Assembly (NCBI GenBank): GCA_026989655.1
Contig: JALSIX010000114.1
Location: forward strand, 62,001-126,000
DNA: 64,000 nt
Source: Caldilineaceae bacterium
Lineage (GTDB): Bacteria > Chloroflexota > Anaerolineae > Caldilineales > Caldilineaceae
Direction: 5' to 3'
The stretch's first letter is position 1. Each line of letters opens with the position of its first letter. A program made the position numbers and the translations under genes. The notes under the pieces were generated by a model. That model was given only the letters and a program-made list of their open reading frames with translations. It was not told where the DNA came from and made no database searches. Below are positions 5,092 to 32,414 of the stretch, one piece after another.

Positions 5092-5505
5092 GGCGGTTCG
5101 GATCTCCTGGTGTCCGTGATGGCTGGGTGCTGTGATGGTTGCCTGTCCGTGACGGTCGCCGGGGAGCCCGGGAAACGGGGCAACAGCCCGGTCCCGCTCT
5201 CCAGCGTCAGCTCTTCCCGGCAAACTGAGACGAATATACGACTTTTGGAGTACGCGATCGGATCCGACAATAGAGACAGTCCCGAAGGGCTCCCAGGAAC
5301 CGGTGGCAACCTGGGAGCCGCCCGTGCCGCAATGGCCCGTTCGCCCCAGACCGGATGGACGACACTTCCCGGTATCCCCCCACGTTCCGACCGACCGTTC
5401 CCGATTGCACCATTGTAACAAAGGCGGGAAGTGCATGGCAAACAAGGGGCCCCATCTCTTCCCTGTCACCTGGGCTGTAATCTAGCCGAAGTATCCTGTC
5501 CTGTG
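5092..5505. other. Divergent intergenic region (414 bp)
   Basis: This region separates the minus-strand helicase operon from the plus-strand cyclase/AAA gene and must hold both promoters. A TATATT element on the minus strand (plus positions 5233-5238) and a TGTAAT element on the plus strand (5476-5481) are possible -10 boxes, but neither has a convincing -35 at the right distance. The centre is noticeably more AT-rich than the genes (about 5220-5280). A clear hairpin at 5288-5319 is listed separately. Confidence 0.5.
5288..5319. other. Perfect 10-bp inverted repeat in divergent promoter region
   Basis: GGCTCCCAGG at 5288-5297 pairs with CCTGGGAGCC at 5310-5319 around a 12-base loop. It lies between the two divergent transcription units, so it cannot be a terminator of either one. 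It could be an operator or a leader hairpin. Confidence 0.55.
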
Positions 5506-8500
5506 ATGACGTCGACCGGCATGCCCTGCCCCAGCTGCAACCACATCAACGCCCCGGAGATGCGCTTCTGTGTGGCCTGCGGCACAGCCCTTCCCCGGCT
5601 GTGCCCGAGCTGTGGCCACCCCGTGCCCGAGGCCCATCGCTTCTGCGGCCACTGTGGCGCCTCCCTGGAGCCCCCTCTCGCGTGCTCCCAGTGTGGGCAG
5701 CCGGTGCCCCTGGGCCACCGTTTCTGCGGCCATTGCGGCGCGCCGGTGGCCCCAGAGCCCCCGGCACCGAGCGGCACCTCCACCCCGGCTCCCTCCCCGC
5801 CCGAGGCGGTGGAGCCGGTCCCGGCCTCGGAGCTCCCAGCCTCCTCCCCGGGGAACGGCCATTTCCTGACCCTGTCCGAACGGCACGAGGAGATGCTGCG
5901 GGGGTTGCGAGGGCTCATGCCGCCCACCCTGGCGGAGAAGATCCGGGAGTCGGCCGGGGAGATCCGGGGACAACGCCGAGAGGTCACGGTGCTCTTCCTC
6001 CAGCTCAGCGAACATCCCGTGGAGGAGGCCACCTCCCTGGACCTGGACCAGGAGACCGTCTACTGGATCCTGGACCAGGCCATGCGGCGGCTGGTAGAGG
6101 TGATCTACAAATACGAGGGCACCGTGGACAAGTTCATGGGCAACGGCCTCATGGCCCTCTTCGGCGCGCCGGTCACCCACGAGGACGATCCCCAGCGGGC
6201 CGTGCGGACGGCCCAGGAGATCCACCAGACCCTGGAGCTCCTCTCGGACCAGTTGGCCCCGGAACACGGCCTGCGGCTGAAGGCCCGGATCGGCATCAAC
6301 ACCGGAGAGGTGGTGGCCGGCCGGGTGGGGAACTCCCTGCACATGGAGTACACGGTCATCGGGGACACGGTCAACCTGGCGGCCCGGCTCCAGGACGCGG
6401 CCCAGCCAGGCACCACCCTGGTGAGCCTGGTCACCTACCGCTACACCCGGCGCACCTTCCACTTCGCCGCGCTGGCCCCCATCCAGGTGAAAGGCAAGCC
6501 CGAGCCGGTCCGGACCTTCCGGGTGCTGGCCGTCCGGGAAGGCCCGGGGCAGGTCCGAGGCCTGCCCGGCCTGGAGATCCCCATGGTGGGGCGCCGGGAC
6601 AAGCTGGCCCTGCTGGAGGCCGCGCTGGAGAACACCCTCCGCACCGGCCGGAGCCACTACGCCCTGATCAGCGGCGAGGCCGGCCTGGGCAAGAGCCGCC
6701 TGGTCCAGGAGTTCCTGGCCCAGATCCAGGGCAGGCCGATCAACGTGCACGTGGCCGCCTGCCTGGCCTATGCCCGCTCCACCCCCTACTTCGTCCTGGG
6801 GGCCCTCATCCGCCAGCTGGCCCAGATCGCGGAGGGCGAGCCGGCCCACGTGCAGCAGCGCCAGGTGGAGAAGTACCTGGACGAGGTGGGCCTGCCCTCT
6901 GCGGAGCTCATGCCCTACCTGCTGGTGACCATGGGCCAGGAGGGGCCCCACGGCGACATCGCAGAGCGGATGGCCAACCTGACCGCGGAGGTGCTCCAGC
7001 GCCAGATCTTCCGCGCGGTGGCCCAGGTCCTGCGCGCGGAGGCCCAGGTGGCCCCCACCGTCCTGGTCCTGGAGGACATCCACTGGCTCGACCCGGCCTC
7101 CCGGGCCTTCTTCACCGAGTTCCTGGAGATCAGCTCGGATCTCCCCATGCTCACCATCCTGGTCTCCCGGGAGTACGAGCGCTCCACCGTGGCCCGGCCC
7201 CTGCTCGCGGTCCTGGTGGACCGGGACGAACGCTTCACCGACATCCGCCTGGACGCGCTGAGCGAGGAGGAGGCCCGCCAACTGGTCATCTGTCTGCTGG
7301 AACGGGCCGGTCTGGAACGGCCGGGACTGGCCGACCGGATCGTGCAGCGGGCCGAGGGCAACCCCTTCTACATCGAAGAGATCGTCCGCATGTTGCTGGA
7401 GAAGGCGGAATTCGGCCCCGCCGAGGAGCGGACGAACGGCCTCCAGGGGGCGGTCGTCGACCCGGGCACCCAGGTGGAGGAGACCCTGCGCGCGGTCCCG
7501 GGCAACCTCCGGGGGCTGATCCTGGCCCGCTTCGACGCCCTGCCCGAGGCCAGCAAGGCCATCGTCCAGCGGGCCGCGGTCCTGGGGCGCTCCTTCCCCG
7601 TGGAGCTCCTGCAGCGGCTGACGTCCCTGAGCCTGGAGGAGCTGACCCAACACCTGGACGAGCTGGTCCAGCGCCAGTTCCTGGTCCGAGAGCCCTTCAG
7701 CAATGGCCTGGGCTACGCGTTCCGCCATATCCTGATCCTGGAGGCCATCTACGGCACCCTGCTGAAACGGGACCGCCGGGAGCTCCACTACCAGGTGGCC
7801 CTGGTGCTGGAGCACGAGCCGTTCCTGCCCAAGGACAACCAGATCGAGGCCCTGGCCTACCACTACCTCCAGAGCCACCACCCAGAGCGGGCCCGCCCCT
7901 ACCTGCTCCAGGCCGCCCAGCGCTCCATGCAGCGGAGCGCCTACGAGAGCGCGGTCCAGCTCTTCGAGCAGCTCTTCATGTTCTACGAGCAGGAACCGGA
8001 GGACTTCGACCCGGTCTACGTGCAGACCCTGGTGGGCATGGGGCAGGCCCTGAAGCTCTCGGGCAGCTACGAGGAGGCCCTGGTCCATCTGTCCACGGTC
8101 TCCGCGTACCTGGACCGCTACCCCATCGGGCCCGAGACCGCATCGGAACAGGTGGACCTCTACCTGGAAGCCCGCTGCGAGCTCGGCGACGTCCTCCAGC
8201 GGCGGGGGGACTTCCTCACGGCCACCGAACACCTGGACGAGGCCCTGGCCGTGGCCCAGAAGCACCGGCGCACCGGCTCCCCCATCTGGTTCACCCTGGT
8301 GGAGCGGAAGGCCTGGGTGGATTTCCGACGGGGCAACCTGGACAGCGCCACCCGCCTGGCCCGGGAGGCCATCCAGGCCCTGGAGGCCATGGAGAGGCCC
8401 GGGCTGCCCCCCATCGTCCTGGCCAACCTCTACAACACCCTGGGCGGCGCGGCCTGGCAACAGGGCAACCTCCACGAGGCCATCTCCTACGTCCGGGGCA

Positions 8501-11500
8501 GCCTCCACATCCACGAACAGGCAGGCTACGCCTGGGGAATGAGCGTCGCCTACACGAACCTGGGCAACCTCTACTGGAGCATGGGCCAGTGGACCGCAGC
8601 CACCGAGGCCTACGCCCGGGCCGCCCAGATCCAGGCGGACAACGGCTTCATGGCCGAACAGACCATCAGCCTGCGCAACCTGGGCCACATCCTGATCTTC
8701 CAGGGCAAGTACGACGAGGCCCGCCAGGCCCTCCTGCAGACCCTGACCCTGTGCGAGGCCCAGGACAACCGCTACGGCCTGCTGTTGAGCCACCTGGCCC
8801 TGGCCGCCCTGGCCGCGGAGCAGGACGACCGGGAGGAACTGGCCTACCAGTTGGAGCAGGCCCGGAAGTACGCGGACCTGGCCGACCTCCAGCACCAGGT
8901 GGAGATGACCATGTACACCGGCCGCCTCTGCCAGCTGGACGGCCGCTACGCCGAGGCAGAGCCCCTGCTGCTGGAGGCCCGCCAGAAGGCCGAGGAGGCC
9001 AACCTCCAGGAGGTCCTCATCGAGGGCGAGTACGCCCTGGGCCTCCTCTATGGGGCCCAAGGTCGCCTGGCCACCGCGGAGTACTGCCTCCAGCGGAGCG
9101 CGGAGCTGGCCGGAGAACGGGGCAACACCGAACGGCAGGCCAAGGCCCTGATGGAGCTGGCCCACCTCCTCTTCCGCCACAGCCGCTCCGGAGACCAGGA
9201 TCCCCAGATCCTGTTGGAGAAGGCCACCGTGCTGCTGGACAAGGCCACCCACCTCTTCCAGGAGGCCCGCATCGAACACCGGCTGGCCCAGTGTCAGGAG
9301 CTCCGAGGGGCCATCCAGCGGGCCTCCCAACGCCTGGCCCAGCTCTCCGAAGGAGGGCCGACCTACCCCCTGGACCTGATGGACGGCCACGGGCTGGCCG
9401 AGAGCCGACGGGTGCCGGTCACCGTGGCCTGGCTGGACCTGCGGGTGGCCGCGGAGGAGCCCGACGAGGAGTGGGCCTTCGAGGAGCTCACCACCCTCCT
9501 CTCCCTGGCCCACACCGTCATCCAGGAGCTGGGCGGGCACCTGGTCCGCCAGACCCAGGGGGTGCTGCTGGTCTTCGGCGTCCCCGCGGTCCGGGAGGAC
9601 GACGTGCCCCAGGCCGCAGAGGCCGCGCTCCGGATCCTGGAGGAGCTGGCCCAGCCGGAACGGTTCCGGGTCTACCAGGTGGCGGCCGGGCTCAGCAGCG
9701 GCCCGGCCATCTGTACCACCTGGGAACCGGACCACCACGAACGGCTGGTGGTCAGCGGCCCCTCGGTGGACCAGGCCCGGGAGCTGGCCCAACAGGCCCC
9801 GGCAGGCCAGCTCTGGGTCACCCAGGCCGCGGCAGACCGCATGCGCCATGCCTTTGTCCTGGCGCCCATCGCGGCGAAGGCAGAGGACCGGGACACCCGG
9901 ATCTACCGGGTGAGCGCCCGACAGGCCCGGCCCGGAAGCCCCCGAGGGCTGGAACGGGGCGTGCGCATGGTGGGCCGGGAGGAACTCCTGGAGGCCATGC
10001 TGGAGTTCACCCGGACCGTCCGCCAGGGCCGAGGCGGTGTCCTCTGGGTGGAAGGGGACGCGGGCATCGGCAAGAGCCGCCTGCTCCGGGAGTACGCAGC
10101 CCGACTGGCCCAGGAGGGCACCGTCTTCTGGACCGGCGCGTGCAGCGCGCGCAGCCGTTCCCAGGCCTTCTTCCTCTTCACCCAGATCTTCGCCTCCGCC
10201 TTCGACTTCACCCCGGGAGACAGCCTGGAGACCCGACGGGCCAAGCTCCACAGCCGAGTGGAGGCCCTGGGGCTGGACGTGGGCTCCATGCGCCCCTACC
10301 TGGACCTGCTGTGTGGGCTCCCCCTGGGGATGGAGGAGATCCGGCGGCTGGAACGGTTGGCACCGGAGCAGCTCCGCCAGCAGATCTTCACCGCGGCCCG
10401 GGCCGCCCTGGGCGGCCAGGTGGCCCAGGGGCCCCTGGTCCTCCTCATCGACGACCTCCACTGGGTGGACCCGGTGTCCGCCAACCTCCTCCTCTCCCTG
10501 GCCTCCCTGATCCTCTCGGCCCCGGTCCTGTTCGTCCTGGCGACCCGGCCGGGCATCGACGAGGACGGCCCGGAGGAGGTCCAACTCCTGCGCCAGCGTT
10601 TTGCGGACTTCAGCCTCTTCCTGGACGTGACCCAGCTCTCCCCCGAGGAGTCCCTGGATCTCCTGCAGGCCCTGCTGGGGGAGGAGCCTGTGGACACCGA
10701 GCTGGCCCAGTTCGTGCTGGCCCGCAGCCAGGGCAACCCCTACTTCGTGGAGGAGTTCGTCCGCTTCCTCATGGAACGGGATCTCCTCCACCGCACCGAG
10801 CAGGGCTGGGCCCTGGCCACCCCGCCCGAGCAGGTGATGGACACCTGGCCCACCAGCCTGGAGGCCCTCATCCGCTCCCGGCTGGACGTCCTGCCCGCGG
10901 TCCAGCGCCAGCTCGTCCAATACGCCGCGGTCCTGGCCCGCCCCTTCAAGGCCACCCTGATGACCCGGCTGCTCCAACGCCCCCAGATCGAGGAGGTCCT
11001 GGCCAGCCTGGTCCGGCGCAAGGTGCTGCGCTACCAGGTGGAGGGCCGACACTGGTACTTCGGCCACCACCTGACCCAGATGGTCGTCTACAGTGGGCTG
11101 CTGCGGGTCCACCGCCAGGCCCTCCACCTGGACATCGCCCAGACCCTGGAGGAGATGGCCCAGGAGGGGAACACGCCCCCTGTGCTGGAGGAACTGGCCC
11201 ACCACTTCCAGGAGGCCGGCTACATGGCCAAGGCCCTGGACTACTGGGTCCAGGCCGGGGAAGAGGCCATGGGCCAGTACGCGGTGGAGGCCGCCCTGGA
11301 CCACTTCGAACGGGCCTACGCCATCATCCAGCAGGAGATCCTCCAGGTCTCCACCGATCTCCGGCGGCGGGTGGCCATGGGCCTGGCCGAGGCCTATCGC
11401 TACCGGGGCAAGCTGGAGAAAGCGGCCCAGATCCTCCAACAGGCCCTGGAGGTCCTGCCCGCCGCAGAGCTCAGCCCGGCCCAGCGGGCCGGGCTCTACC

Positions 11501-12609
11501 GGCTGCTGGGCGACATCGTGCGCCGCCAGGGGCAGCCCGAGAAGGCCTACGACGCCTTTCGCCAGGCCCTGGTGCTCCTGGAGGAGCCCGAGACCCAGGA
11601 AGGCCAGGCCGAGGCGGCCCGGGCCCTCCAGGGTTTGGCCTTCACCCACTTCCAGCGGGGCCAGTTGGACAAGGCCTTCCAGGTGGCACAGCTGGGGCTG
11701 GAATATGCCCGTCGGGCCCAGGAACCCATCATCGAGGCCGGGAGCGAGAACCTGTTGGGCGGCATCGCCTACGCGCAGGGGAACTGGCAGGAGACCATTG
11801 CCCACGTGGACCGGGCCTACCAGCTCTACGAGGCCGAGAACGACCTCAACGGCATGGCCGCGGCCCTCAGCAACCTGGCCATCCTGATGGCCGAACAGGG
11901 CGACCGGGACCGGGCTCGGCTCTACTTCCGCCACAGCCTGGAGCTGCGGGAGAAGATCGGCGACCTGGAGGGGGTGGCCCTCACCCACAACAACCTGGGC
12001 TGGCTGGAGCGGCTCAGCGGCCACTTCGAGCGGGCCCGCTTCCACTTCGAACGGGGGCGCAGCCTCAGCGAGTCCCTGCGCTTTCCCTTCCACCTGGCCA
12101 CCGCCCTGCTGGCCCTGGGCGAGCTCCACCTGGCCCAGGGCCAGCAGGCCGAGGCCCAGGCCTTCCTGGACCAGGCCACCCGGTGGGCCCAGGAGGCGGA
12201 TGCCCAGGCCCTGTTGGCGGAGATCCACCAGATCCAGGCCCAGGCCGCCCTGGCCCTGGACGACCCGTCCCAGGCCGAACAGTCGGCCCGCTGGGCCATC
12301 CTGCTGGCCGCGGAGACGGGGAACTCCAACCTGGAGGCCGGCGCCTGGCGGATCCTCAGCCAGATCCAGCTCCACCAGGGGAAGCTGGAGGCCGCGGAGC
12401 GCTCCCTGAACATGGCCCAGCAACGGCTGACCGAGCCCCGAGGCCTGGAGGCCGGCCGTATCCTGGTCCAGTCGGCCCGCCTGCACATGGCCCGTCAGGA
12501 GGCAGCCGAGGCTCGCCAGATGCTGGAACGGGCCCGAGAGCTGTTCCAACACCTGGGCACCCGGCCCGACCTGGAGGATGTGGAGGCACTGCTTGTCCAA
12601 CTGGCCTAG
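5506..12609 (+). CDS. Giant zinc-ribbon / cyclase homology / AAA ATPase / TPR protein with duplicated architecture
   Basis: A 2367-residue cytoplasmic signalling protein. Domains in order: three zinc ribbons in the first 85 residues (repeated CxxC pairs, the later two followed by CGHCGA); class III cyclase homology domain 1 (about 155-330); an AAA/STAND ATPase with Walker A GEAGLGKS near 389 and Walker B LVLEDIHW near 521; TPR repeats to about 1280; a second, eroded cyclase-like domain (about 1305-1455); a second ATPase with Walker A GDAGIGKS (about 1517-1524) and Walker B LLIDDLHW (about 1646); and a second TPR array to the end. Cyclase domain 1 has Gln166 and Asn213 where the two metal-binding Asp belong, but keeps Lys209, Asn290 and Arg294 (Thr283 suggests subclass IIIb). 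Domain 2 keeps one Asp (1311) but has Gln1351, Asp1422 and Glu1426 elsewhere. Alone, neither should be a normal cyclase. The start is ATG 5506; ATG 5521 is an alternative. The next gene, 40 bp downstream, encodes a close relative. Confidence 0.9.
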   Translation: MTSTGMPCPSCNHINAPEMRFCVACGTALPRLCPSCGHPVPEAHRFCGHCGASLEPPLACSQCGQPVPLGHRFCGHCGAPVAPEPPAPSGTSTPAPSPPEAVEPVPASELPASSPGNGHFLTLSERHEEMLRGLRGLMPPTLAEKIRESAGEIRGQRREVTVLFLQLSEHPVEEATSLDLDQETVYWILDQAMRRLVEVIYKYEGTVDKFMGNGLMALFGAPVTHEDDPQRAVRTAQEIHQTLELLSDQLAPEHGLRLKARIGINTGEVVAGRVGNSLHMEYTVIGDTVNLAARLQDAAQPGTTLVSLVTYRYTRRTFHFAALAPIQVKGKPEPVRTFRVLAVREGPGQVRGLPGLEIPMVGRRDKLALLEAALENTLRTGRSHYALISGEAGLGKSRLVQEFLAQIQGRPINVHVAACLAYARSTPYFVLGALIRQLAQIAEGEPAHVQQRQVEKYLDEVGLPSAELMPYLLVTMGQEGPHGDIAERMANLTAEVLQRQIFRAVAQVLRAEAQVAPTVLVLEDIHWLDPASRAFFTEFLEISSDLPMLTILVSREYERSTVARPLLAVLVDRDERFTDIRLDALSEEEARQLVICLLERAGLERPGLADRIVQRAEGNPFYIEEIVRMLLEKAEFGPAEERTNGLQGAVVDPGTQVEETLRAVPGNLRGLILARFDALPEASKAIVQRAAVLGRSFPVELLQRLTSLSLEELTQHLDELVQRQFLVREPFSNGLGYAFRHILILEAIYGTLLKRDRRELHYQVALVLEHEPFLPKDNQIEALAYHYLQSHHPERARPYLLQAAQRSMQRSAYESAVQLFEQLFMFYEQEPEDFDPVYVQTLVGMGQALKLSGSYEEALVHLSTVSAYLDRYPIGPETASEQVDLYLEARCELGDVLQRRGDFLTATEHLDEALAVAQKHRRTGSPIWFTLVERKAWVDFRRGNLDSATRLAREAIQALEAMERPGLPPIVLANLYNTLGGAAWQQGNLHEAISYVRGSLHIHEQAGYAWGMSVAYTNLGNLYWSMGQWTAATEAYARAAQIQADNGFMAEQTISLRNLGHILIFQGKYDEARQALLQTLTLCEAQDNRYGLLLSHLALAALAAEQDDREELAYQLEQARKYADLADLQHQVEMTMYTGRLCQLDGRYAEAEPLLLEARQKAEEANLQEVLIEGEYALGLLYGAQGRLATAEYCLQRSAELAGERGNTERQAKALMELAHLLFRHSRSGDQDPQILLEKATVLLDKATHLFQEARIEHRLAQCQELRGAIQRASQRLAQLSEGGPTYPLDLMDGHGLAESRRVPVTVAWLDLRVAAEEPDEEWAFEELTTLLSLAHTVIQELGGHLVRQTQGVLLVFGVPAVREDDVPQAAEAALRILEELAQPERFRVYQVAAGLSSGPAICTTWEPDHHERLVVSGPSVDQARELAQQAPAGQLWVTQAAADRMRHAFVLAPIAAKAEDRDTRIYRVSARQARPGSPRGLERGVRMVGREELLEAMLEFTRTVRQGRGGVLWVEGDAGIGKSRLLREYAARLAQEGTVFWTGACSARSRSQAFFLFTQIFASAFDFTPGDSLETRRAKLHSRVEALGLDVGSMRPYLDLLCGLPLGMEEIRRLERLAPEQLRQQIFTAARAALGGQVAQGPLVLLIDDLHWVDPVSANLLLSLASLILSAPVLFVLATRPGIDEDGPEEVQLLRQRFADFSLFLDVTQLSPEESLDLLQALLGEEPVDTELAQFVLARSQGNPYFVEEFVRFLMERDLLHRTEQGWALATPPEQVMDTWPTSLEALIRSRLDVLPAVQRQLVQYAAVLARPFKATLMTRLLQRPQIEEVLASLVRRKVLRYQVEGRHWYFGHHLTQMVVYSGLLRVHRQALHLDIAQTLEEMAQEGNTPPVLEELAHHFQEAGYMAKALDYWVQAGEEAMGQYAVEAALDHFERAYAIIQQEILQVSTDLRRRVAMGLAEAYRYRGKLEKAAQILQQALEVLPAAELSPAQRAGLYRLLGDIVRRQGQPEKAYDAFRQALVLLEEPETQEGQAEAARALQGLAFTHFQRGQLDKAFQVAQLGLEYARRAQEPIIEAGSENLLGGIAYAQGNWQETIAHVDRAYQLYEAENDLNGMAAALSNLAILMAEQGDRDRARLYFRHSLELREKIGDLEGVALTHNNLGWLERLSGHFERARFHFERGRSLSESLRFPFHLATALLALGELHLAQGQQAEAQAFLDQATRWAQEADAQALLAEIHQIQAQAALALDDPSQAEQSARWAILLAAETGNSNLEAGAWRILSQIQLHQGKLEAAERSLNMAQQRLTEPRGLEAGRILVQSARLHMARQEAAEARQMLERARELFQHLGTRPDLEDVEALLVQLA

Positions 12610-12649: not shown

Positions 12650-14773
12650 ATGTCGAACCCTGGCCCGCAGAGCCCGAACGGAAGCCCCATGCCCCAGAAC
12701 GCCACCACCTGCCCCCAATGCGGCACCGTGGCCCCGCCCGGCGCCCGTTTCTGCGGCCACTGTGGCACCCGCCTGCCCACCCGGGCCCTCCTCCCCTCCG
12801 GCCCCCGCCCGGGCCCCACCGGCCTGGAGGAGCTCTCCCCTCCGGGCCCCATCCCCCCGACCTCGGACGGATCCCTGGCCATCCAGGGCGAACGCCGGGA
12901 GATCACGGTGCTGGTGGCCGACGTCTCCAACTTCACCGCGGCCAGCCACCGGATGGACCACGAGGACATCTACATCCTGATCAACGAGGCCATCCGCACC
13001 ATGGTGGACATCGTGTTCCGCTACGAGGGGAGCGTGGAACACTTCACCGGGGACGGGCTCATCGCCCTCTTCGGCGCGCCGGTGGGCCACGAGAACGATC
13101 CGGAGCGGGCAGTCCGGGCTGCGCTGGAGATCCAACAGGCCCTGGAGCTGCTGCGGCTGCGGGCCCTGCAGCGGTACAACTTCGACCTGCGGGTGCGCAT
13201 CGGGATCCACACGGGCTGGGCCATCGTGGGCAAGGTGGGCAACGAGCTCCACACAGAGTACACCGTGGTGGGCGAGAGCATCCAACTGGCCTCCTATCTG
13301 GAGAGCCAGACCGACCCTGGGACGGTGCTGGCCAGCTTCACCACCTATCAGCGCACCCGGCCCATCTTCCACTACCAGCGAGTTCGGCTCTTCGGCCCAC
13401 CGAATGGGCTCCAGGAGCTGGAGACGGCCTTCCGCCCCCTGCGGGTCCGGGAGAAGCCCAGCAACATCCGCGGCCTGCCCGGCATGCAGGTGCCCCTGAT
13501 CGGGCGCGAGGAGGAGCTGGACGAGCTCCGGGCCGGGCTGCAGGAGGTGCTGCGCCACCCCCGACGTACCCGGCTCCTCGCGGTGATCGGCGAGGCAGGC
13601 CTGGGCAAGAGCCGCCTGGTCAACGAGTTCGGCCGATGGGCCGAGCAGCGAGGCGTGCCGGTCTTCGAGGGCGCGTGTCTGGCCTACGGCCGCTCCAGCC
13701 CCTACTGGATGGTCCGAGACCTGGTCCGCCGGCTGGCCGGCCTCGACGAGGGCCTGACCGGCGATGCCCAGGTGCGGGAGCTGGGGGACTGGCTCCACAG
13801 CCTGCCCATCGACCACGACGCGGACGTGGTGCTGCCCTACCTGTTGATGGCCATGGGGCTGGAGGCCTACGCCCCCCAGCTCTGCCGGCCCCTGAACCTG
13901 CTGGAGAGGGGGATGCTCCAGCAACGGATCCACGTGATGCTGCGCCACGTGCTCTGGGCCATCCTGCGAGAGCCCGCGGTCCTGGTGTTGGAGGACCTCC
14001 ACTGGATCGACGCGCCCTCCCTCCGCTTCCTGGAGTACTTCCTGCGCACCACCCAGAACCTGCCCCTCCTGATCATCCTGGTCACCCGGGACTACGAACC
14101 CCACACCCAGGTAGGGCAGCTCCTGACCGTGGCCGAGACCCTGCCCGGCTGGCTGCCCCCCATCCACCTCCAGGCCCTCTCCGAGGAACAGAGCCACCAC
14201 TTCCTCCAGCAGCTCGTCCCCGGCCAGAGCCCCCTGCTCCAGAAGGTGCGGGAGGAGATCGCGGCCCAGGCCGAGGGGAACCCCTTCTACATCGAGGAGA
14301 TCGTGCGCATGCTGCTCGACCAGGAAGGCCTGGTCTTCCGGGAAGAGGGGCTGGACGCGGTGGAACAGGCCCTCACCCTGATCCACGAGGTCCCCGGCAC
14401 CCTGGCCGGGCTGATCCTGGCCCGCTTCGACCGGCTGCCCCCGGCCCTGCGGCGCACCCTCCAGCAGGCGGCCGTGCTGGGCCGCTCCTTCCCCCTGCGG
14501 CTGTTCCAAGCCCTGCGCCCCGGCGAGGCCGAGAAGGTGCGCCAGGAGCTGGACGCCCTGGTGGAACGCCACTTCCTGCAGCAGGAGTCCTTCGGCCCCG
14601 AGCCCGGCTACGCGTTCCGCCACACCCTGATCCAGAGCGCCATCTACCACACGCTCCTCCGCCGAGATCAACAGCGCCTGCACCAGATGGTGGCCCAGGC
14701 CATCGAGACCATCGCGCCCGAGGAACGACAGAGCTGGCAGGCCCTCCTGGCCCACCACCGTCAGAAGCTCTGA
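12650..14773 (+). CDS. Zinc-ribbon / cyclase homology / AAA ATPase protein (no TPR), paralog of the upstream gene
   Basis: A 707-residue protein that repeats the first half of its upstream neighbour: one zinc ribbon (CPQCG...CGHCG, residues 21-44), a class III cyclase domain (about 80-255) and an AAA/STAND ATPase with Walker A GEAGLGKS near 313-320 and Walker B LVLEDLHW near 445. It ends just where the TPR array begins in the neighbour. The cyclase domain retains both metal-binding Asp (Asp91 in VLVADVSNF, Asp135 in FTGDGL) but has His131 for the substrate Lys, Gln212 for the catalytic Asn and Tyr216 for the transition-state Arg. This is the reverse of the losses in domain 1 of the upstream protein. 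The sequence after the TGA is AT-rich non-coding DNA with no TPR remnant, so the short C terminus looks like a stable form and not a recent nonsense mutation. The start ATG 12650 lies 40 bp after the upstream stop; ATG 12689 is an alternative. Confidence 0.88.
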   Translation: MSNPGPQSPNGSPMPQNATTCPQCGTVAPPGARFCGHCGTRLPTRALLPSGPRPGPTGLEELSPPGPIPPTSDGSLAIQGERREITVLVADVSNFTAASHRMDHEDIYILINEAIRTMVDIVFRYEGSVEHFTGDGLIALFGAPVGHENDPERAVRAALEIQQALELLRLRALQRYNFDLRVRIGIHTGWAIVGKVGNELHTEYTVVGESIQLASYLESQTDPGTVLASFTTYQRTRPIFHYQRVRLFGPPNGLQELETAFRPLRVREKPSNIRGLPGMQVPLIGREEELDELRAGLQEVLRHPRRTRLLAVIGEAGLGKSRLVNEFGRWAEQRGVPVFEGACLAYGRSSPYWMVRDLVRRLAGLDEGLTGDAQVRELGDWLHSLPIDHDADVVLPYLLMAMGLEAYAPQLCRPLNLLERGMLQQRIHVMLRHVLWAILREPAVLVLEDLHWIDAPSLRFLEYFLRTTQNLPLLIILVTRDYEPHTQVGQLLTVAETLPGWLPPIHLQALSEEQSHHFLQQLVPGQSPLLQKVREEIAAQAEGNPFYIEEIVRMLLDQEGLVFREEGLDAVEQALTLIHEVPGTLAGLILARFDRLPPALRRTLQQAAVLGRSFPLRLFQALRPGEAEKVRQELDALVERHFLQQESFGPEPGYAFRHTLIQSAIYHTLLRRDQQRLHQMVAQAIETIAPEERQSWQALLAHHRQKL

Positions 14774-14789
14774 TGTAGGCCTTACCCAA

Positions 14790-14846
14790 CCTTACGTAAG
14801 GGCCAAATATACGCCATTTGGCGTAGGAATTTGGTACTTTTGGCGT
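14790..14846. promoter_or_regulatory. Cluster of palindromes and TTTGGCGT direct repeats (candidate operator)
   Basis: This AT-rich stretch lies between the AAA protein and the secreted-peptide gene. It contains a 12-bp perfect palindrome CCTTACGTAAGG (14790-14801), an inverted repeat GCCAAAT/ATTTGGC (14802-14808 and 14816-14822), a second nested one TACGCCA/TGGCGTA (14810-14816 and 14819-14825), and TTTGGCGT twice exactly 22 bp apart (14817-14824 and 14839-14846), with a variant TTTGGTAC between. Two-turn spacing on one DNA face suggests binding of a multimeric regulator. No clear -35/-10 pair was found, although TGATAA at 14867-14872 may be a -10. Confidence 0.5.
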
Positions 14847-14987
14847 TCCCCAACTCCTCCACTTTCTGATAAAGTAACAGCCACAAGTGGACACCCGACA
14901 AAACCGTAATCTCTTGTCGGTTCGGTGCTCCGCTTGTCCTACCCACCATCTTCTCTCAACCGTTCCAACCTACTCAGGAGGTCCAAG

Positions 14988-15185
14988 ATGAACCTGTCTC
15001 GTCTCGTGGTGATCGTCTCGCTGGTGTTGCTGCTGGTGGTGGCTCCGGCCCTGGCCGTGGGCTTCGGCGTCTCGCTCCCCGAGCTGGGCGCGGACAACGC
15101 CATCGCGGGCATCCTCTGGGCCGGTGACTGCGGCAGCAACCCCCTCGGCGGCAACTGCGTCGACGGCATCCTCTGGGCCGGGTAA
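14988..15185 (+). CDS. Small secreted peptide with duplicated GILWAG motif
   Basis: A 65-residue protein with a strong AGGAGG ribosome site ending 6 bases before its ATG. Residues 1-23 form a classical signal peptide (basic Arg5, a hydrophobic core from 6 to 18, cleavage after ALA at 21-23). The predicted mature peptide has 42 residues, carries GILWAG at 41-46 and again at the very C terminus (60-65), and has two cysteines, Cys48 and Cys57, between them that could form a disulfide. The motif is also duplicated in DNA as a 17-bp perfect repeat 57 bp apart. It resembles the ILWGD-type tandem motifs I recall from tails of some secreted bacterial proteases, but no family is identified. It stands alone between a structured upstream region and a strong hairpin, just after the cyclase/AAA genes. 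A secreted signal or structural peptide is possible; the function is unknown. Confidence 0.72.
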   Translation: MNLSRLVVIVSLVLLLVVAPALAVGFGVSLPELGADNAIAGILWAGDCGSNPLGGNCVDGILWAG

Positions 15186-15301
15186 GCTGGCCTTCGGGCA
15201 CGCCTCCCCAGATCTCCGAGCCACCAGGAGGGAGCATGTCGAAGGTACCGGCCTGTCGAGTCAACTGGAATAGCTGAAGCCGGCCACAGTGCTTCAGAGC
15301 C

Positions 15302-15350
15302 CAGAAAGGGGAAGGCCCGGCGGTTTGTCCACCGGGCCTTCCCCTTTCTG
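15302..15350. terminator. 19-bp perfect hairpin between convergent units
   Basis: The left arm CAGAAAGGGGAAGGCCCGG (15302-15320) pairs perfectly with 15332-15350 around an 11-base loop. It lies between the stop of the peptide gene (plus) and the stop of cheR (minus), the expected place for a bidirectional terminator. Neither side has a proper U-tract, so it may act as an mRNA-end stabiliser or need Rho. Confidence 0.75.
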
Positions 15351-15380
15351 CCGCCCTCTCCTTCCCCCGTTCCAAACCGG

Positions 15381-16922
15381 TCACCCGGGTCCCCCAGCCG
15401 GAGCCCCTGCCCACCCCCGCAGAGGGTGCCGCTGCATGGCCACCAGCTCCCGCAGGACACCCACCGTGAGCTCGGGCTCGTCCTGGGGCGCAACCACCTG
15501 GTGAAGGGGCCGCCCCCGCAGCAGACGCTCCACGTTGTCCAACGAACGAGCGGCCTGGATCGGATCGCCCAATCCATGCCACACCGTGGCCAGGGCCATG
15601 TGGACCAGGGGAGCCTCGGGATCCAGGTACCGGGCCCGGCGCAGAGCCGCCAGCGCTCCCGGCAGATCGTCCATCCCCTGGGCCACCATCCCCCGCCAGT
15701 AGTGGACCCGGGCCAGGTCCGGGGCCAGGGCCTCGGCCCGGTCCAGCCAATGGCTGGCCTCCTGCCATCGGCACTGGGATGCCAGGTCTCGGGCCCTGTC
15801 ACAGGCCCGGTGGGGGTCGTCCACCGGCTCGGGGCATCCCGCCGCCTCCAGCCGGCCGGGCCCCGGCTCCGACCGAGGGACCTCCGCCGGAGGGGATCCT
15901 CCCCGGGGCAGGACCTTTCCGAGGCCCGTCTGCCCCCACGACCGCCCAGGCGGGGCATGGCCGAACGCCCCCACGCCCGGCCACCCCCCTGGAGAGGTCG
16001 GCTGTTCCCCGGTCCAGGGTGCCCTGCCCCCTGTCGAACGTTCCCAGGGGGTGGCGATCCCCGCCGGGGGCGACGGCCCTTCCCCCGGCCCGGGCCGCCG
16101 GTAGACCGTGGCCCCTCCCAGGCGGATCCGCTGGAAACGGTGGTAGTATCCGGGCATGGCCTCCACCGCGCTCACCAGGAGCCACCCGCCCTCGGCCAGA
16201 CAGTCGTAGAGCCGTTGGACCACCCGGTGGGCCGTCTCCGGGTCGAAGTAGATCAGGACGTTGCGACAGAGGATCAGGTCGAAATCGGCCAGGCCGCGCC
16301 CGGGATCCGGATATCGATCGGCAGCCAGGTTCAGGTGTTGGAACGTCACCCAGCCGCGCACCGGTTCCCGCAGCCGGTAGATGTTCTCCTGGACATCGAA
16401 GTAGGCCCGCACCACCTCCGGGGGCGTCTGCCGCAGGGACCAGGGCCGATATCGGCCCTCCCGGGCCTGGGCCAGGGCCTGTCGGTCCACATCGGTTCCC
16501 AACAGCCGCCACGTCCACCGGTCGGCCTCGGGCAGGAGCTGGTGGAGGAGAATGGCCAGGGAGTAGGGTTCCTCGCCGGTGGCGCAGGCCGCGCTCCACA
16601 TCCGCAAGGTCCGCTGTTCCCGACGGCGCCACAGGATCTCCGGCAACAGCTCGTGGCGGAGGAGGTCGAAATGGACGGGATCCCGGAAGAAGTAGGACTC
16701 CCCCACGGTCATGGCCTCGGCCAGCCGTTGGAGCAGGGCGTGGCTGCCCGGGCCATCGAGCCGCTCCAGCAGGGCATCCACGTCCCCACCGGTGTGCTCC
16801 CGGGCCAGGAGAGAGGCCGCCCGCAGCAGCTCCGGGTGTCGGTAGGCGGGAAGACGCAGACCGCTGAACCGCTGGAGCCGCTCGGCCAGGGCGACCACCT
16901 GTGGTGCTGGAACCCCGTCCAT
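15381..16922 (-). CDS. cheR: CheR-type chemoreceptor methyltransferase with C-terminal TPR
   Basis: A 513-residue protein. The first about 280 residues are CheR: an N-terminal helical domain, MTVGESYFFRDP near 70-80, the SAM-binding WSAACATGEEPYS stretch near 108-120, and LILCRNVLIYF near 218-228. CheR transfers methyl groups from S-adenosylmethionine to glutamates of chemoreceptors. A Pro/Gly-rich linker of about 90 residues follows, then a TPR-like region (about 375-460), as in FrzF-like or CheR-TPR fusions where the repeats recruit a receptor or partner. It is the last gene of the chemosensory operon, starting 5 bp after the cheW stop. ATG 16922 was chosen because upstream in-frame codons lie inside cheW. 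Confidence 0.92.
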   Translation of the reverse strand: MDGVPAPQVVALAERLQRFSGLRLPAYRHPELLRAASLLAREHTGGDVDALLERLDGPGSHALLQRLAEAMTVGESYFFRDPVHFDLLRHELLPEILWRRREQRTLRMWSAACATGEEPYSLAILLHQLLPEADRWTWRLLGTDVDRQALAQAREGRYRPWSLRQTPPEVVRAYFDVQENIYRLREPVRGWVTFQHLNLAADRYPDPGRGLADFDLILCRNVLIYFDPETAHRVVQRLYDCLAEGGWLLVSAVEAMPGYYHRFQRIRLGGATVYRRPGPGEGPSPPAGIATPWERSTGGRAPWTGEQPTSPGGWPGVGAFGHAPPGRSWGQTGLGKVLPRGGSPPAEVPRSEPGPGRLEAAGCPEPVDDPHRACDRARDLASQCRWQEASHWLDRAEALAPDLARVHYWRGMVAQGMDDLPGALAALRRARYLDPEAPLVHMALATVWHGLGDPIQAARSLDNVERLLRGRPLHQVVAPQDEPELTVGVLRELVAMQRHPLRGWAGAPAGGPG

Positions 16923-16927
16923 GTGGC

Positions 16928-17389
16928 TCACGGGAACGCAGCCCGGGAATGGGGATCGGCCCAGGAGGCCGCACCAGCTCGGGGGCGCTCGAGCCAGGCG
17001 TAGCTCTCGGCCACCAGGGGCGCAGGATCCAGGAGAAGCACCAGTTGCTCGTCCTGGTGGGTCACCCAACGGCCCTCCTCGGGTTCCGGCAGGGCCGCCA
17101 CGTCGCACACCGAGGTCACCACCAGGCCCACGGAACGCCCCTCCACACCCACCACGATCACCGGGGTGTCCAGGTGGATGGGCACCCCGGGCAGGCCCAG
17201 CCGGCGGGCCAGGTCCAGGACCGGCAGCACCTGGCCCCGGAGGTTGAGACAGCCCAGGAGCCAGGCCGGTGCGTGGGGCAGGGAGAGCAGAGCGGCCATG
17301 CGCAGGACCTCCACCACATGTTCGATGGCCAGGCCGTAGAGCGGCTCCCCCAGCCGGAAGAGCAGGTACAGGGAGCGTCCTTCCCTCAT
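16928..17389 (-). CDS. cheW: CheW-like coupling protein
   Basis: A 153-residue protein made of a single CheW domain that links chemoreceptors to the CheA kinase. Typical features are LYLLFRLGEPLYGLAI near residues 7-22, the LGCLNLRGQVLPVLDLA stretch near 48-64 and IVVGVEGRSVGLVV near 80-93. Its ATG overlaps the stop of the preceding REC-histidine kinase gene by 4 bp (ATGA), so translation is probably coupled. It is the second CheW in the operon and lacks the long N-terminal extension of the first. Confidence 0.92.
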   Translation of the reverse strand: MREGRSLYLLFRLGEPLYGLAIEHVVEVLRMAALLSLPHAPAWLLGCLNLRGQVLPVLDLARRLGLPGVPIHLDTPVIVVGVEGRSVGLVVTSVCDVAALPEPEEGRWVTHQDEQLVLLLDPAPLVAESYAWLERPRAGAASWADPHSRAAFP

Positions 17390-18558
17390 GGGGACACCTC
17401 CAGGGTCGCGGGAGAGGAGAGGGTGCCCTCGGAGTGGATGGGCACCGCGACGGTGAAGGTGCTGCCCTGCCCCGGCCCCGGAGATTCCGCCCACACCGTG
17501 CCCCCATGGGCCTCCACGATCTCCCGCACGATGAACAGGCCCAGGCCCGTTCCCTGGATCTCCCGGACCGCGGGGTTGTCGGCCCGGCGGAACTTGTCGA
17601 AAAGGTGGGGGAGGAGATCGGGATCCAGCCCAATGCCCGTGTCCTGAACCTGGAAGAACATCCGGCCCCCCTCCTGCCAGAGGCGGATCCAGATGCTCCC
17701 CTCCCGAGGCGTGTACTTCAACGCGTTCACGATCAGGTTGTCGAACACCTGCTTCAGACGACGGCCATCGGCCCAGATCTGGGCCGGCGCCCGGTCGGTC
17801 TCCACCCGAACCTGCTGGCCGTTCAGCCGGGCCCGGATCTGGGCCATGCGAACGCTCTCCTCCAACAGGGCCCGGGGATCCACCCAGGCGAACTCCAACT
17901 GCAGTTTCCCCGACTCCAGGCCGATGAAGTCCAGGTAGTCGTTGATCAGCTCGTGGAGCCGGTGGCTGGCCTGGAGCAAGGTATGGACCAGCTCCCGCTG
18001 GGTCTCGTTGAGGGGCCCGGTGGCCGGGTCGGACAGGAGATCCAGGGCCAGTTGGATGGTGTTGGTCGGGCTGCGCAGGTCGTGGGCCACGATGGCGAAC
18101 AGCTCGGCCTTCACCGCCTCCAACTGGCGGGCTGCCAGGATGCCGGCCCGCCGCTCCATGGCCTGCTCCAGCCAGTAGAGGAAGGCCTCGTGATCCCCGC
18201 CCACGGACACATCCTCCTTCTGGATGTAGCCGTCGGCTCCCTCCCGGACCGAGGCGATGGCCGAGCGGACACCGCCCATCCCGGTGATCACCACCACGGT
18301 GGGTTCCTCGGTCTGGCTGCGGATCGCCCGCAACACCTGGATCCCATCGGTGTCGGGCAGGAGAAGGTCCAGGAGGATCAGGTCATAGCAGGTCGGGTCC
18401 ATCCCCAGCCGGTCCAGACACTCCCGGCCCGTGGCCACCCCCTCCACCTGGATCCGGTGCTCCCGCAGGAGGGCGGCGATGAAGGTGCGGACCGTGGCCG
18501 AATCGTCCACGATCAGCACGCGCTTCCCAGCAAGCGATTCAGCGGCCATGTGGCTCAT
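17386..18558 (-). CDS. Response-regulator receiver / histidine kinase hybrid
   Basis: A 390-residue cytoplasmic protein with a receiver domain first (VLIVDDS at 14-20, phospho-acceptor Asp64 in LLDLLLPDTDG), then a HisKA dimerisation domain with His159 in IVAHDLRSPTN, and a HATPase_c domain with the N box FDNLIVNALKY and G boxes DTGIGLD and GTGLGLF. Receiver-first kinases of this kind take a phosphoryl signal (here presumably from CheA) and pass it on, so this may be the operon's output in place of a separate CheY. There are no membrane spans. ATG 18558 overlaps the cheB stop by 4 bp; ATG 18549 is an alternative. Confidence 0.9.
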   Translation of the reverse strand: MSHMAAESLAGKRVLIVDDSATVRTFIAALLREHRIQVEGVATGRECLDRLGMDPTCYDLILLDLLLPDTDGIQVLRAIRSQTEEPTVVVITGMGGVRSAIASVREGADGYIQKEDVSVGGDHEAFLYWLEQAMERRAGILAARQLEAVKAELFAIVAHDLRSPTNTIQLALDLLSDPATGPLNETQRELVHTLLQASHRLHELINDYLDFIGLESGKLQLEFAWVDPRALLEESVRMAQIRARLNGQQVRVETDRAPAQIWADGRRLKQVFDNLIVNALKYTPREGSIWIRLWQEGGRMFFQVQDTGIGLDPDLLPHLFDKFRRADNPAVREIQGTGLGLFIVREIVEAHGGTVWAESPGPGQGSTFTVAVPIHSEGTLSSPATLEVSP

Positions 18559-28222: not shown

Positions 28223-29155
28223 TCAGGTCCGCTGGCGGGGGTCCAGGGCGTCTCGCAGGCCGTCTCCCATGAAGTTGATGCTCAGGATGGTGAGGGAGAT
28301 GAAGAGGCCGGGCCAGATCACCACCCAGGGGGTGAAGGTCAGGAAGTCCTTGCCGTCGTAGAGGAGGCGCCCCCAGGTGGGCACGTCGGGGGGGAAACCC
28401 AGGCCCAGGAAGGAGAGCGCGGACTCGTTGAGGATGGCGCTGGCCACGCTCAGGGTGGCGGAGACGATGATGGGGCTGAGGACATTGGGCAGGATGTGCC
28501 GGCGCAGGATCCCGGTCTGGTGGACGCCGATGTTGACGGCGGCCTCCACGAACTCCTTCTCCTTGACCGAGAGGACCGATCCCCGCACCACCCGGGCCGT
28601 GGGCATCCAGCCCAGGATGCCGATGACGGAGACGATGAGGAGGAAGATGCCCAGCTCCGGGCCCAGGAGCTTGCGCAGGGTGTCCCGGAAGAGCATGATG
28701 ATCACCAGCAACAGGGGAAGCTGGGGCAGGGCCAGCATCATGTCGGTGAAACGCATGAGGGGGTTGTCCAACGCGGGGAAGTAGCCGGAGAGGAGCCCCA
28801 CCAAGGTGCCGAAGAAGATCGCGATGGCCATGGCCACCACGCCCACGGCCAGGGAGATGCGGCCGCCGTAGAGGTTGCGGGCCAGCAGATCCCGGCCCAG
28901 GTCGTCGGTCCCAAAGGGGTGCTCCCAGCTCGGCCCCAGGTTGGCCTGGGTGATGTCGATGTACTCCGGATCCACCCGGTAGAAGAGGGGGCCGATGAGG
29001 ATGCCCAGGACCAGGAGGGCCAGCACCACCAGGCCGATCATGGCCAGGCGGTTGCGTCGGAACTGCACCCAGGCATCGCCCCAGAGGGTGCGGTGGGTGC
29101 GGCGGACATCCTGGGCCAGCTGTGGCGGTGGGGCGGTCTGGGTTCGTACGGCCAT
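28223..29155 (-). CDS. Oligopeptide/dipeptide-type ABC transporter permease (DppC/OppC-like)
   Basis: A 310-residue inner-membrane permease. After an N-terminal cytoplasmic segment and a first span near 38-58, it has the family-typical HPFGTDDLGRDLLARNLYGGRISL stretch in split form (HPFGTDDLGRD, near 89-100) and a cluster of spans with the coupling-helix EAA-like region. It pairs with the OppB-like permease to form the pore of a peptide-type importer. It begins 19 bp after its partner's stop codon. No ATPase gene (oppD/oppF-like) follows; the next gene on this strand is the unrelated patatin. Confidence 0.92.
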   Translation of the reverse strand: MAVRTQTAPPPQLAQDVRRTHRTLWGDAWVQFRRNRLAMIGLVVLALLVLGILIGPLFYRVDPEYIDITQANLGPSWEHPFGTDDLGRDLLARNLYGGRISLAVGVVAMAIAIFFGTLVGLLSGYFPALDNPLMRFTDMMLALPQLPLLLVIIMLFRDTLRKLLGPELGIFLLIVSVIGILGWMPTARVVRGSVLSVKEKEFVEAAVNIGVHQTGILRRHILPNVLSPIIVSATLSVASAILNESALSFLGLGFPPDVPTWGRLLYDGKDFLTFTPWVVIWPGLFISLTILSINFMGDGLRDALDPRQRT

Positions 29156-29174
29156 GGACCGAGGGCTCCGTGGG

Positions 29175-30191
29175 CTATTGGTAGGTGATCCGGGGATCCA
29201 GGACGGCGTAGATCATGTCCGCGATGAGGTTGAAGGCCACGATGAGGACCGCGAAGATGAAGGTCACCGTCTGGACCGTAGGGATGTCGAAGCTCTGGAT
29301 GGAGAGGATGAGGAGGGCTCCCAGGCCGTTCACCCGGAAGATCTGCTCGGTGATGATGGCCCCCGCGAAGATCTGGGGGATGCCCAGGGCCACCAGGGTG
29401 ACCACCGGGATCAGGCTGTTGCGCAGCACGTGGCGAAAGACCACGTAGCGCTCCCGAAAGCCCTTGGCATAGGCCGTGCGCACGTAGTCCTGCTTCAGGT
29501 TGTCCAGGACGGAGGAACGGGTGTAGCGGCTCAGCGCGGCGGTCTGGAAGAAGGCCAAGACCCCGACCGGCATGGCCATCTGCTTGATCTGGGCCACGAA
29601 GCTGGCCCAGTCTGTGACCTCCAGGGTGGTGTTGTAGACCGAGGGGAACCACTTCAGGTTCACGCTGAAGACCACGATGGCCAGCAGCCCGGTGAAGAAG
29701 GTGGGCATGGAGTAGCCGATGACGGCCAGGACCGTGCTGATCTGGTCGAAGATGGAGTTCTGACGGATGGCCCCGATGACCCCCAGGGGGACCGCGATGA
29801 GGACGGCCAGCAGGTACGCAAAGCCCACCACCCACAGGGTCTGGGGCACCCGTTCCACGATCAGGTCGATGACCGGCTTGCCCCGACTGCTCCAGGAGGT
29901 GATGCGCAGGCGGTCCTCCGAGCCCGGGAAGGTGATGCCCGTGGTCTCCTCCAGGATGTTCAAGGGCTCGTTGATGAAGAACTGCTTCATCCACAGCAGA
30001 TAGCGGACGTGGAAGGGCTCGTCCAGCCCTAGGGCCTCCCGGATCTGGGCCCGGACCTCGGGCTTGATCTGGGGGGGCAGGGTGCCGGTGGGGTCGCCAG
30101 GGGCCAGGTCTAGGACGGCGAAGATGACGAAGCTGATGGCCAACAGCGTGGGGATGGCGGTCAGGATGCGTCGGATGAAGTAGTTGCCCAT
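29175..30191 (-). CDS. Oligopeptide/dipeptide-type ABC transporter permease (DppB/OppB-like)
   Basis: A 338-residue inner-membrane permease that begins with the hallmark YFIRRILTAIPTLLAISFVIF and DLAPGDP loop (residues 4-34). Six spans are expected, with the coupling region near residues 225-260 (RYTRSSVLDNLKQDYVRTAY in type). The partner is the OppC-like gene downstream; the binding protein is encoded upstream. ATG 30191 is the only reasonable start, and the intergenic stretch upstream holds three hairpins. Confidence 0.93.
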   Translation of the reverse strand: MGNYFIRRILTAIPTLLAISFVIFAVLDLAPGDPTGTLPPQIKPEVRAQIREALGLDEPFHVRYLLWMKQFFINEPLNILEETTGITFPGSEDRLRITSWSSRGKPVIDLIVERVPQTLWVVGFAYLLAVLIAVPLGVIGAIRQNSIFDQISTVLAVIGYSMPTFFTGLLAIVVFSVNLKWFPSVYNTTLEVTDWASFVAQIKQMAMPVGVLAFFQTAALSRYTRSSVLDNLKQDYVRTAYAKGFRERYVVFRHVLRNSLIPVVTLVALGIPQIFAGAIITEQIFRVNGLGALLILSIQSFDIPTVQTVTFIFAVLIVAFNLIADMIYAVLDPRITYQ

Positions 30192-30214
30192 CGCGCGTGC
30201 TCCACGGGGGCGAT

Positions 30215-30328
30215 GCCGGGTGCGGCCCTGGCGGCCGCACCCGGCTCGTGGGCTCTTGGGGCCGGCCTCTTGGATGCCGGCCCGGTCCTCCCGGGGTCGG
30301 TGGGCTCTGGGGGCCTACCGACCCCGGG
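30215..30328 (-). other. Three consecutive perfect hairpins between binding-protein and permease genes
   Basis: A 13-bp stem with a 5-base loop (GCCGGGTGCGGCC at 30215-30227 with 30233-30245), an 8-bp stem (GGGCCGGC 30259-30266 with 30276-30283) and a 12-bp stem (CCCGGGGTCGGT 30290-30301 with 30317-30328) fill almost the whole gap. Such structures commonly stabilise the upstream mRNA part and lower expression of downstream permeases. No U-tract is present, so full termination is unlikely. Confidence 0.7.
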
Positions 30329-30348
30329 GGAAAGAGAGGGCCTGGGGC

Positions 30349-32247: not shown

Positions 32248-32414
32248 ACGCGGCTCTCCTTTGATGTGGTGGATGGACGAAACACCCTCGAGGTTGTTCC
32301 TTGGGCACTCCACGGACCCAGGGGAGGTGCTGTGGAGCAGCCAGTCCGACCGTGCTCAAGGTTGTGTTCGGGGGATGTCCTTGCGGCCAGATCTCGCCTG
32401 GAGCTCCTGCCCAG

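Follow-up and report, generated by a model that had tools for sequence, protein, structure and literature searches.

A candidate two-peptide unit with tryptophan modules beside a cyclase/AAA/TPR gene pair in a Caldilineaceae genome

Downstream of a pair of large cyclase/ATPase genes, the window (the whole stretch of 64,000 nucleotides that was analysed) holds a 65-aa open reading frame (ORF) with a signal-peptide-like start and two GILWAG units, the second of which forms its C terminus; the gene order and a related C-terminal Trp motif recur in two further Caldilineaceae genomes, where the counterparts are under purifying selection. Our leading, still tentative interpretation is that this ORF and a 13-codon ORF behind it form a two-peptide unit with Trp modules of the type found on subtilase tails, i.e., a ligand module for export that is tied to the cyclase/AAA/TPR pair. 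Here, the 65-aa precursor would be exported via its signal peptide, and signal peptidase, following the AxA rule for its cleavage sites, would cut after Ala-Leu-Ala (residues 21-23). The C-terminal module could act as a short ligand of a partner which may also bind subtilase tails, the adjacent TPR/AAA cyclase might represent the linked sensor or regulator, and the leaderless 13-residue peptide ending in VNWNS would be a companion within the same unit. Such an arrangement would connect a class of large, unassigned cyclase/ATPase genes to concrete peptides of 8-65 residues which can be synthesised as candidates for their ligands or outputs, and hints at an unrecognised peptide-ligand system.

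The small ORFs and their surroundings in the window

The 65-aa ORF (Table 1) looks like a real gene. Its GC content by codon position (0.71/0.46/0.94) resembles that of the surrounding long genes (0.74/0.43/0.93 in the upstream 711-codon frame), and it is the sole case with a 6/6 AGGAGG among the hydrophobic-start ORFs of 30-150 aa in the window. The good ribosome site, the signal-peptide-like start and the 17-bp DNA repeat encoding GILWAG at a 19-residue interval, one copy being C-terminal, had been named in the initial annotation and can all be read directly from the DNA. The two units occupy residues 41-46 and 60-65, giving the C terminus DGILWAG. The 17-bp repeat is above chance, as none of 2000 codon-shuffled versions had an exact repeat of more than 14 bp (longest shuffled repeat, 14 bp). 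Two matches to the general module in the mature region were reached by 5 of 200,000 shuffles, with a pattern composed after the subtilase tails had been seen. AlphaFold2 placed a confident helix solely over the signal peptide (remainder at pLDDT ~50), and the product matched no Pfam family at E ≤ 0.1, hence it lacks a Peptidase_S8 domain. Cys48 and Cys57, for which a disulfide had been proposed, are both present; such a bond is however not a family trait, as the other members found all lack these two cysteines.

Table 1. Features of the candidate unit and the adjoining gene pair (window positions).
Feature	Position	Strand	Basis or remark
2392-aa cyclase/AAA/TPR protein, gene 1 of pair	5431..12609	+	NCBIfam and PADLOC
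707-aa zinc-ribbon/guanylate cyclase/AAA_16 protein, gene 2 of pair	12650..14773	+	Pfam
AACCTTAC element	14788..14795	+	overlaps palindrome TTACGTAA at 14792-14799
Palindrome TACGCCATTTGGCGTA	14810..14825	.	leader of 65-aa ORF
AGGAGG ribosome-binding site	14976..14981	+	6 nt 5' of ATG 14988
65-aa signal-peptide-like ORF, two GILWAG units, second = C terminus	14988..15185	+	MNLSRLVVIVSLVLLLVVAPALAVGFGVSLPELGADNAIAGILWAGDCGSNPLGGNCVDGILWAG
17-bp repeat GGCATCCTCTGGGCCGG, copy 1	15108..15124	+
17-bp repeat GGCATCCTCTGGGCCGG, copy 2	15165..15181	+	spacing 57 bp = 19 codons
13-codon ORF MSKVPACRVNWNS, Trp at position 11, ends VNWNS	15236..15277	+	own AGGAGG at 15226-15231
Hairpin closing the unit, 22-nt arms 95% complementary	15302..15350	.	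folding

The 13-codon ORF, absent from the initial annotation, is a probable second peptide. As had been noted earlier, a complex upstream region and a strong hairpin flank the 65-aa ORF: palindromes lie in its leader, which is AT-richer (GC 0.50) than the window (0.70), and the downstream hairpin folds with -46 kcal/mol over 15286-15352 (z -7), lacks a T-run and matches Rfam only below gathering scores. Simple promoter and terminator scans at the locus found nothing.

Upstream of the ORF, palindrome TTACGTAA occurs once in the 64 kb (mean in shuffles, 0.01) and element AACCTTAC once, at 14788, in the 672,931 bases examined of the same genome (in slightly overlapping stretches). The equivalent loci of G027, G008 (two copies), G018 and G004 carry the latter as well, though ahead of different genes, in G018 and G004 ahead of a different gene of the cyclase pair; it further occurs once in L424 and within the subtilase gene of L230. 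TTACGTAA stands 5' of the signal-peptide ORF at three loci (the window, G018 C43 and G027 C254) and is absent at the other module ORFs. The window lacks TACGT-N5-TACG, which is found 5' of the module gene of G018, G027 and G051 and in one other case in the control loci. The shared upstream elements AACCTTAC and TACGT-N5-TACG are correlations.

As for the gene pair, the 2392-aa protein resembles TIGR03903 in two stretches, below the NCBIfam cut-off, and matches the PycC-type cyclase and TPR models of PADLOC. Pfam assigns AAA_16 (5e-21), Guanylate_cyc (4e-14) and Zn_Ribbon_1 to the 707-aa protein and gives no HTH or other DNA-binding domain. The proposal of a dedicated, regulated peptide beside large ATPases is upheld with regard to an exported-type peptide gene next to cyclase/ATPase genes, while regulation and export are only probable from the sequence. 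Further downstream, a chemotaxis cluster lies on the opposite strand (CheR, ORF 15381-17633; CheW, CheB, a CheA-type protein and an MCP). A Trp-attenuator leader peptide was considered and rejected, as no biosynthetic gene follows in the same direction, the next gene, cheR, being convergent. The window also contains a candidate peptide importer at 28226-32250 (OppC, OppB and a family 5 solute-binding protein, SBP_bac_5).

Counterparts by gene order and further module ORFs

Relatives of the locus were located with the 707-aa neighbour as query (46 genomes, E ≤ 1e-80), which matched in 12 of these, including the genome under study. The Caldilineaceae genome G018 has both genes of the pair and, behind them, a signal-peptide ORF of 44 aa, MAKRFSMAIVMALLVAAMSISMASAGSNGAGNQPTPDGVPTWSG, ending in DGVPTWSG, then a 13-codon ORF with GTG start, MNNPIRRGFTWGG, and an inverted repeat. 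A second Caldilineaceae genome, G027, has a homologue of the 44-aa ORF, MMKRISMAIVAALLVAAMSISIAAADGSGSGNGNGGITPNGLPTWSG, ending in NGLPTWSG, then a 13-codon ORF with Shine-Dalgarno sequence (SD), MNQPNRRGFTWGG, and a hairpin. Synteny crosses a contig break here: the G027 cyclase pair ends one contig, with which the end of the peptide-unit contig overlaps in a dispersed element, and the two contigs probably adjoin. This element of ~110 bp, bounded by GTAACTG/CAGTTAC (end of L222, end of L329, upstream in L363), appears to interrupt the assembly. In G027, the peptide unit faces a convergent gene for a large secreted DUF11/GEVED-type protein (L329:9117-14102), and a similar-sized frame of 1692 codons occupies the same place in G018 (L223).

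All three 13-codon ORFs carry Trp at position 11. The counterparts in G018 and G027 are under purifying selection, with pN/pS of 0.22/0.51, 0.29/0.66 and 0.14/0.52 in three ORF pairs (the signal-peptide ORFs at the cyclase locus, the 13-codon ORFs and the ORFs of contigs C39/C254; pooled Fisher p 8e-8). Small homologous ORFs in relatives, whose absence would have refuted the initial annotation, thus have an equivalent in two Caldilineaceae genomes, namely ORFs in the matching position that end in a related Trp motif. The spelling GILWAG is confined to the genome under study. The label "orphan" fails, since gene order and motif reveal a diverged motif family that includes subtilase tails.

The module can be approximated as [G/S]-aliphatic or aromatic-(x)-[T/L/N]-W-[S/A/N/G]-[G/S/D/N], spelled GILWAG in the window and GFTWSG, GLPTWSG, GIATWSG or VNWNS elsewhere. 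It also terminates further small ORFs, each with the stop directly behind the ending given. Signal-peptide ORFs ending in GFTWSG stand at the orthologous place G018 C39/G027 C254, and one ending in NGFTWGG in G018 C43, where a 99-codon ORF that contains AGLPTWSG immediately precedes it. In the genome under study, contig C15 has two related tandem signal-peptide ORFs ending in SGWTWSGP and SGWTWSVVDMP (L083:5878-6045 and 6398-6556); each of these has its own leader and hairpin, and they lie downstream of a TPR gene. Leaderless versions comprise the 16-codon ORF MKSANWNSRRGFTWGG (L362:9426-9476; SD 6/6), which ends in RGFTWGG and is located near serine recombinases and a phage-type helicase and primase, and the 8-codon ORF MRGFTWGG (L364:479-505), likewise near serine recombinases; these loci belong to G018 C45 and G027 C417. 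As background, no signal-peptide ORF ending in the module was counted in 596 kb of the genome under study or in 397 kb of G018, and SD-preceded micro-ORFs ending in it amounted to one unconvincing case each in these two genomes. A TWSG-stop pattern gave 73 matches in 7 genomes, and 3 of the 30 loci read were real (G018 C27, G018 C39, G027 C138). The pattern G[F/W/L/C]TW[S/A/G]G-stop was found at 42 places in 35 of 396 genomes of the class, and among the 34 places read, only six, half of them in G018 and half in G027, were signal-peptide or SD-preceded ORFs.

Sequence searches gave a different picture. Against 100 genomes, the 65-aa ORF matched only itself at E ≤ 0.001; 15 places including itself reached E ≤ 0.1, and none was a counterpart (all motif-scanned, 6 of the 14 others translated). 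No relative was confirmed among 593 pattern stretches from a genome contig collection, and none was found on plasmids. A profile of the C15 pair yielded no credible new member among 17 places inspected in 61 genomes, and pairwise comparison of the 65-aa ORF with the C15 peptide of the same genome returned only a 28-residue match that runs through GILWAG of the latter's signal peptide. Loose DNA patterns for the module were too noisy in GC-rich genomes. The family link of the 65-aa ORF is therefore one of position and short motif, without significant sequence similarity; genes this short escape similarity searches, and the relatives were recovered here only by gene order and motif.

Subtilase tails and competing readings

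Comparable Trp units form the tails of secreted S8 subtilases in Chloroflexota. GGFTWS-type repeat tails were found in G018 C43, G027 C84, G027 C10 and contig C138 of the genome under study, where the subtilase carries eight units (GGFTWS/GGYTWS). The tail in G018 C70 consists of GLPTWS/GMPLWS and that in G018 C2 (L393) of SVNWNS repeats with GFTWS, so that the VNWNS of the 13-codon ORF lies letter by letter within a subtilase repeat unit; GINWAG is also among the units on such tails. A 468-aa subtilase of the genome under study (L395, contig C17) has a hydrophobic stretch and GRLWGGG at its C terminus.

Several such proteases neighbour cyclase genes. In G008 and G004, a subtilase (Pfam S8) follows the cyclase/AAA/TPR genes, with tails of nine GxATWSG units (GIATWSG) and four GYTWAD units, respectively. 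On four Oscillochloris-related contigs (L230-L233), a Trp-rich-tailed subtilase is the convergent neighbour of the cyclase homologue, the tails showing Trp units only in part (e.g., QIIWAG, INWNG) and no clean tandem repeats; AlphaFold2 on three of these subtilases, aligned, was uninformative (mean pLDDT 32). Among 11 more distant cyclase-gene places in 8 genomes, one has a Trp-tailed S8 subtilase (G051 C145, 536 bp from the cyclase homologue, ten GYATWSG units), one an S8 protein without clear units (G005) and nine have none, some of these nine with less than 1.5 kb of sequence on one side; no convincing small module ORF was seen at the 11 places. Trp-tailed subtilases were absent from the distant Chloroflexota contigs L238 and L252 (L227-L229 end too early to be counted) and from the cyclase genes of 12 loci examined outside Chloroflexota, a count which excludes L239, L242, L245, L249 and loci whose match is confined to the zinc ribbon. 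As G008, G004, G051 and the Oscillochloris-related contigs keep a Trp-tailed subtilase by the cyclase gene, the 65-aa ORF looks like a protease-tail module that stands on its own.

The subtilases that G008 and G004 have in this position could also mean that the 65-aa ORF is a relic, in which an ancestral Trp-tailed subtilase lost its catalytic part and left the signal peptide and tail. This is very improbable, given the clean SD, the stop right after the module, the typical codon usage, the purifying selection on the counterparts and the co-located 13-codon ORF. Still harder to credit is a small toxin acting on membranes, or an ORF that arose by chance: the product is small, hydrophobic and without relatives in sequence searches, yet the same SD, codon usage, selection and companion ORF speak against this, as do the background of 0 such ORFs in 596 kb and the lack of an RNA family at gathering score.

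Other readings accept the module as functional. TPR proteins are the partners of tiny peptides in RRNPP systems, and a pheromone read inside the cell in this or a leaderless style would leave the cell as a precursor and undergo processing; an oligopeptide ABC transporter would then take it up again, and the TPR region of the cyclase/ATPase would bind it, with leaderless versions skipping Sec export. The common C-terminal code of signal-peptide and leaderless forms, the TPR/AAA gene adjoining the peptide gene, the leaderless forms near serine recombinases and the Opp operon of the window would fit. We nevertheless regard this alternative as doubtful: elsewhere the neighbour slot is taken by subtilases whose tails repeat the unit up to ten times, which would be strange if this were the place of a pheromone gene, Pfam shows no DNA-binding domain in the 707-aa protein, and Opp operons are common and not diagnostic, the one here lying 13 kb off on the other strand. 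An extracellular structural or inhibitory role of the free module, as a cap, competitor or docking partner for the Trp tails on the cell's own subtilases (e.g., C138) and without any signalling, is in our estimate unlikely. The eight-unit subtilase of the same genome and the two small signal-peptide ORFs that come right after a (GGFTWS)n subtilase in G018 C43 are in line with it, but the leaderless versions of 8-16 residues would be left unexplained and GILWAG differs from the genome's own subtilase unit GFTWS.

Extending the preferred reading of an exported ligand tied to the cyclase/AAA/TPR pair, one may speculate on a Trp code that serves Chloroflexota as a ligand language, written in subtilase tails, exported minipeptides and leaderless peptides of 8-16 residues, some on mobile elements, and read by cyclase/AAA/TPR proteins. 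Such a general code is rather improbable at present; if true, copies on mobile elements would imitate or report on a host signal.

Relation to known systems

Text searches of the open-access literature with the motif strings returned no paper on such peptides or tails; two papers retrieved by one of them concern snake venom. With the IetAS/Pycsar defence systems (PADLOC), the loci share the composition of ATPase and subtilase in relatives and a cyclase domain resembling PycC; the subtilase here, however, has a signal peptide, and the matches cover partial domains only. Tiny signal-peptide or leaderless peptides likewise occur in RRNPP and related systems of Firmicutes; leaderless communication peptides are the subject of PMC10518010. 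The locus combines short exported-type and leaderless peptide genes with TPRs in the 2392-aa protein, but belongs to another phylum, and a candidate cyclase/AAA/TPR partner would take the place of an HTH-TPR regulator, with no HTH found by Pfam in the 707-aa protein.

In actinobacteria, FxSxx-COOH precursors are coupled to TPR ATPases, and the authors of PMC7159879 suggest a peptide toxin or signal. Small, fast-diverging precursors, a conserved C-terminal aromatic motif and a TPR ATPase gene are common to both cases, whereas the actinobacterial systems feature metallopeptidase cleavage and a radical-SAM gene (PMC7159879). The motif differs as well, FxSxx being absent from the C terminus DGILWAG, and no vWA/MoxR/VMAP, radical-SAM/SPASM or metallopeptidase gene was found among the window genes annotated or scanned with Pfam. 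Finally, the Chloroflexota S8 subtilase tails present the same kind of short Trp units on secreted proteins and, in G008 and G004, from the same neighbour position, while the window ORF has two units only, spelled GILWAG, and no protease domain. This comparison offers a first lead on a possible purpose of the Trp repeats on these tails.
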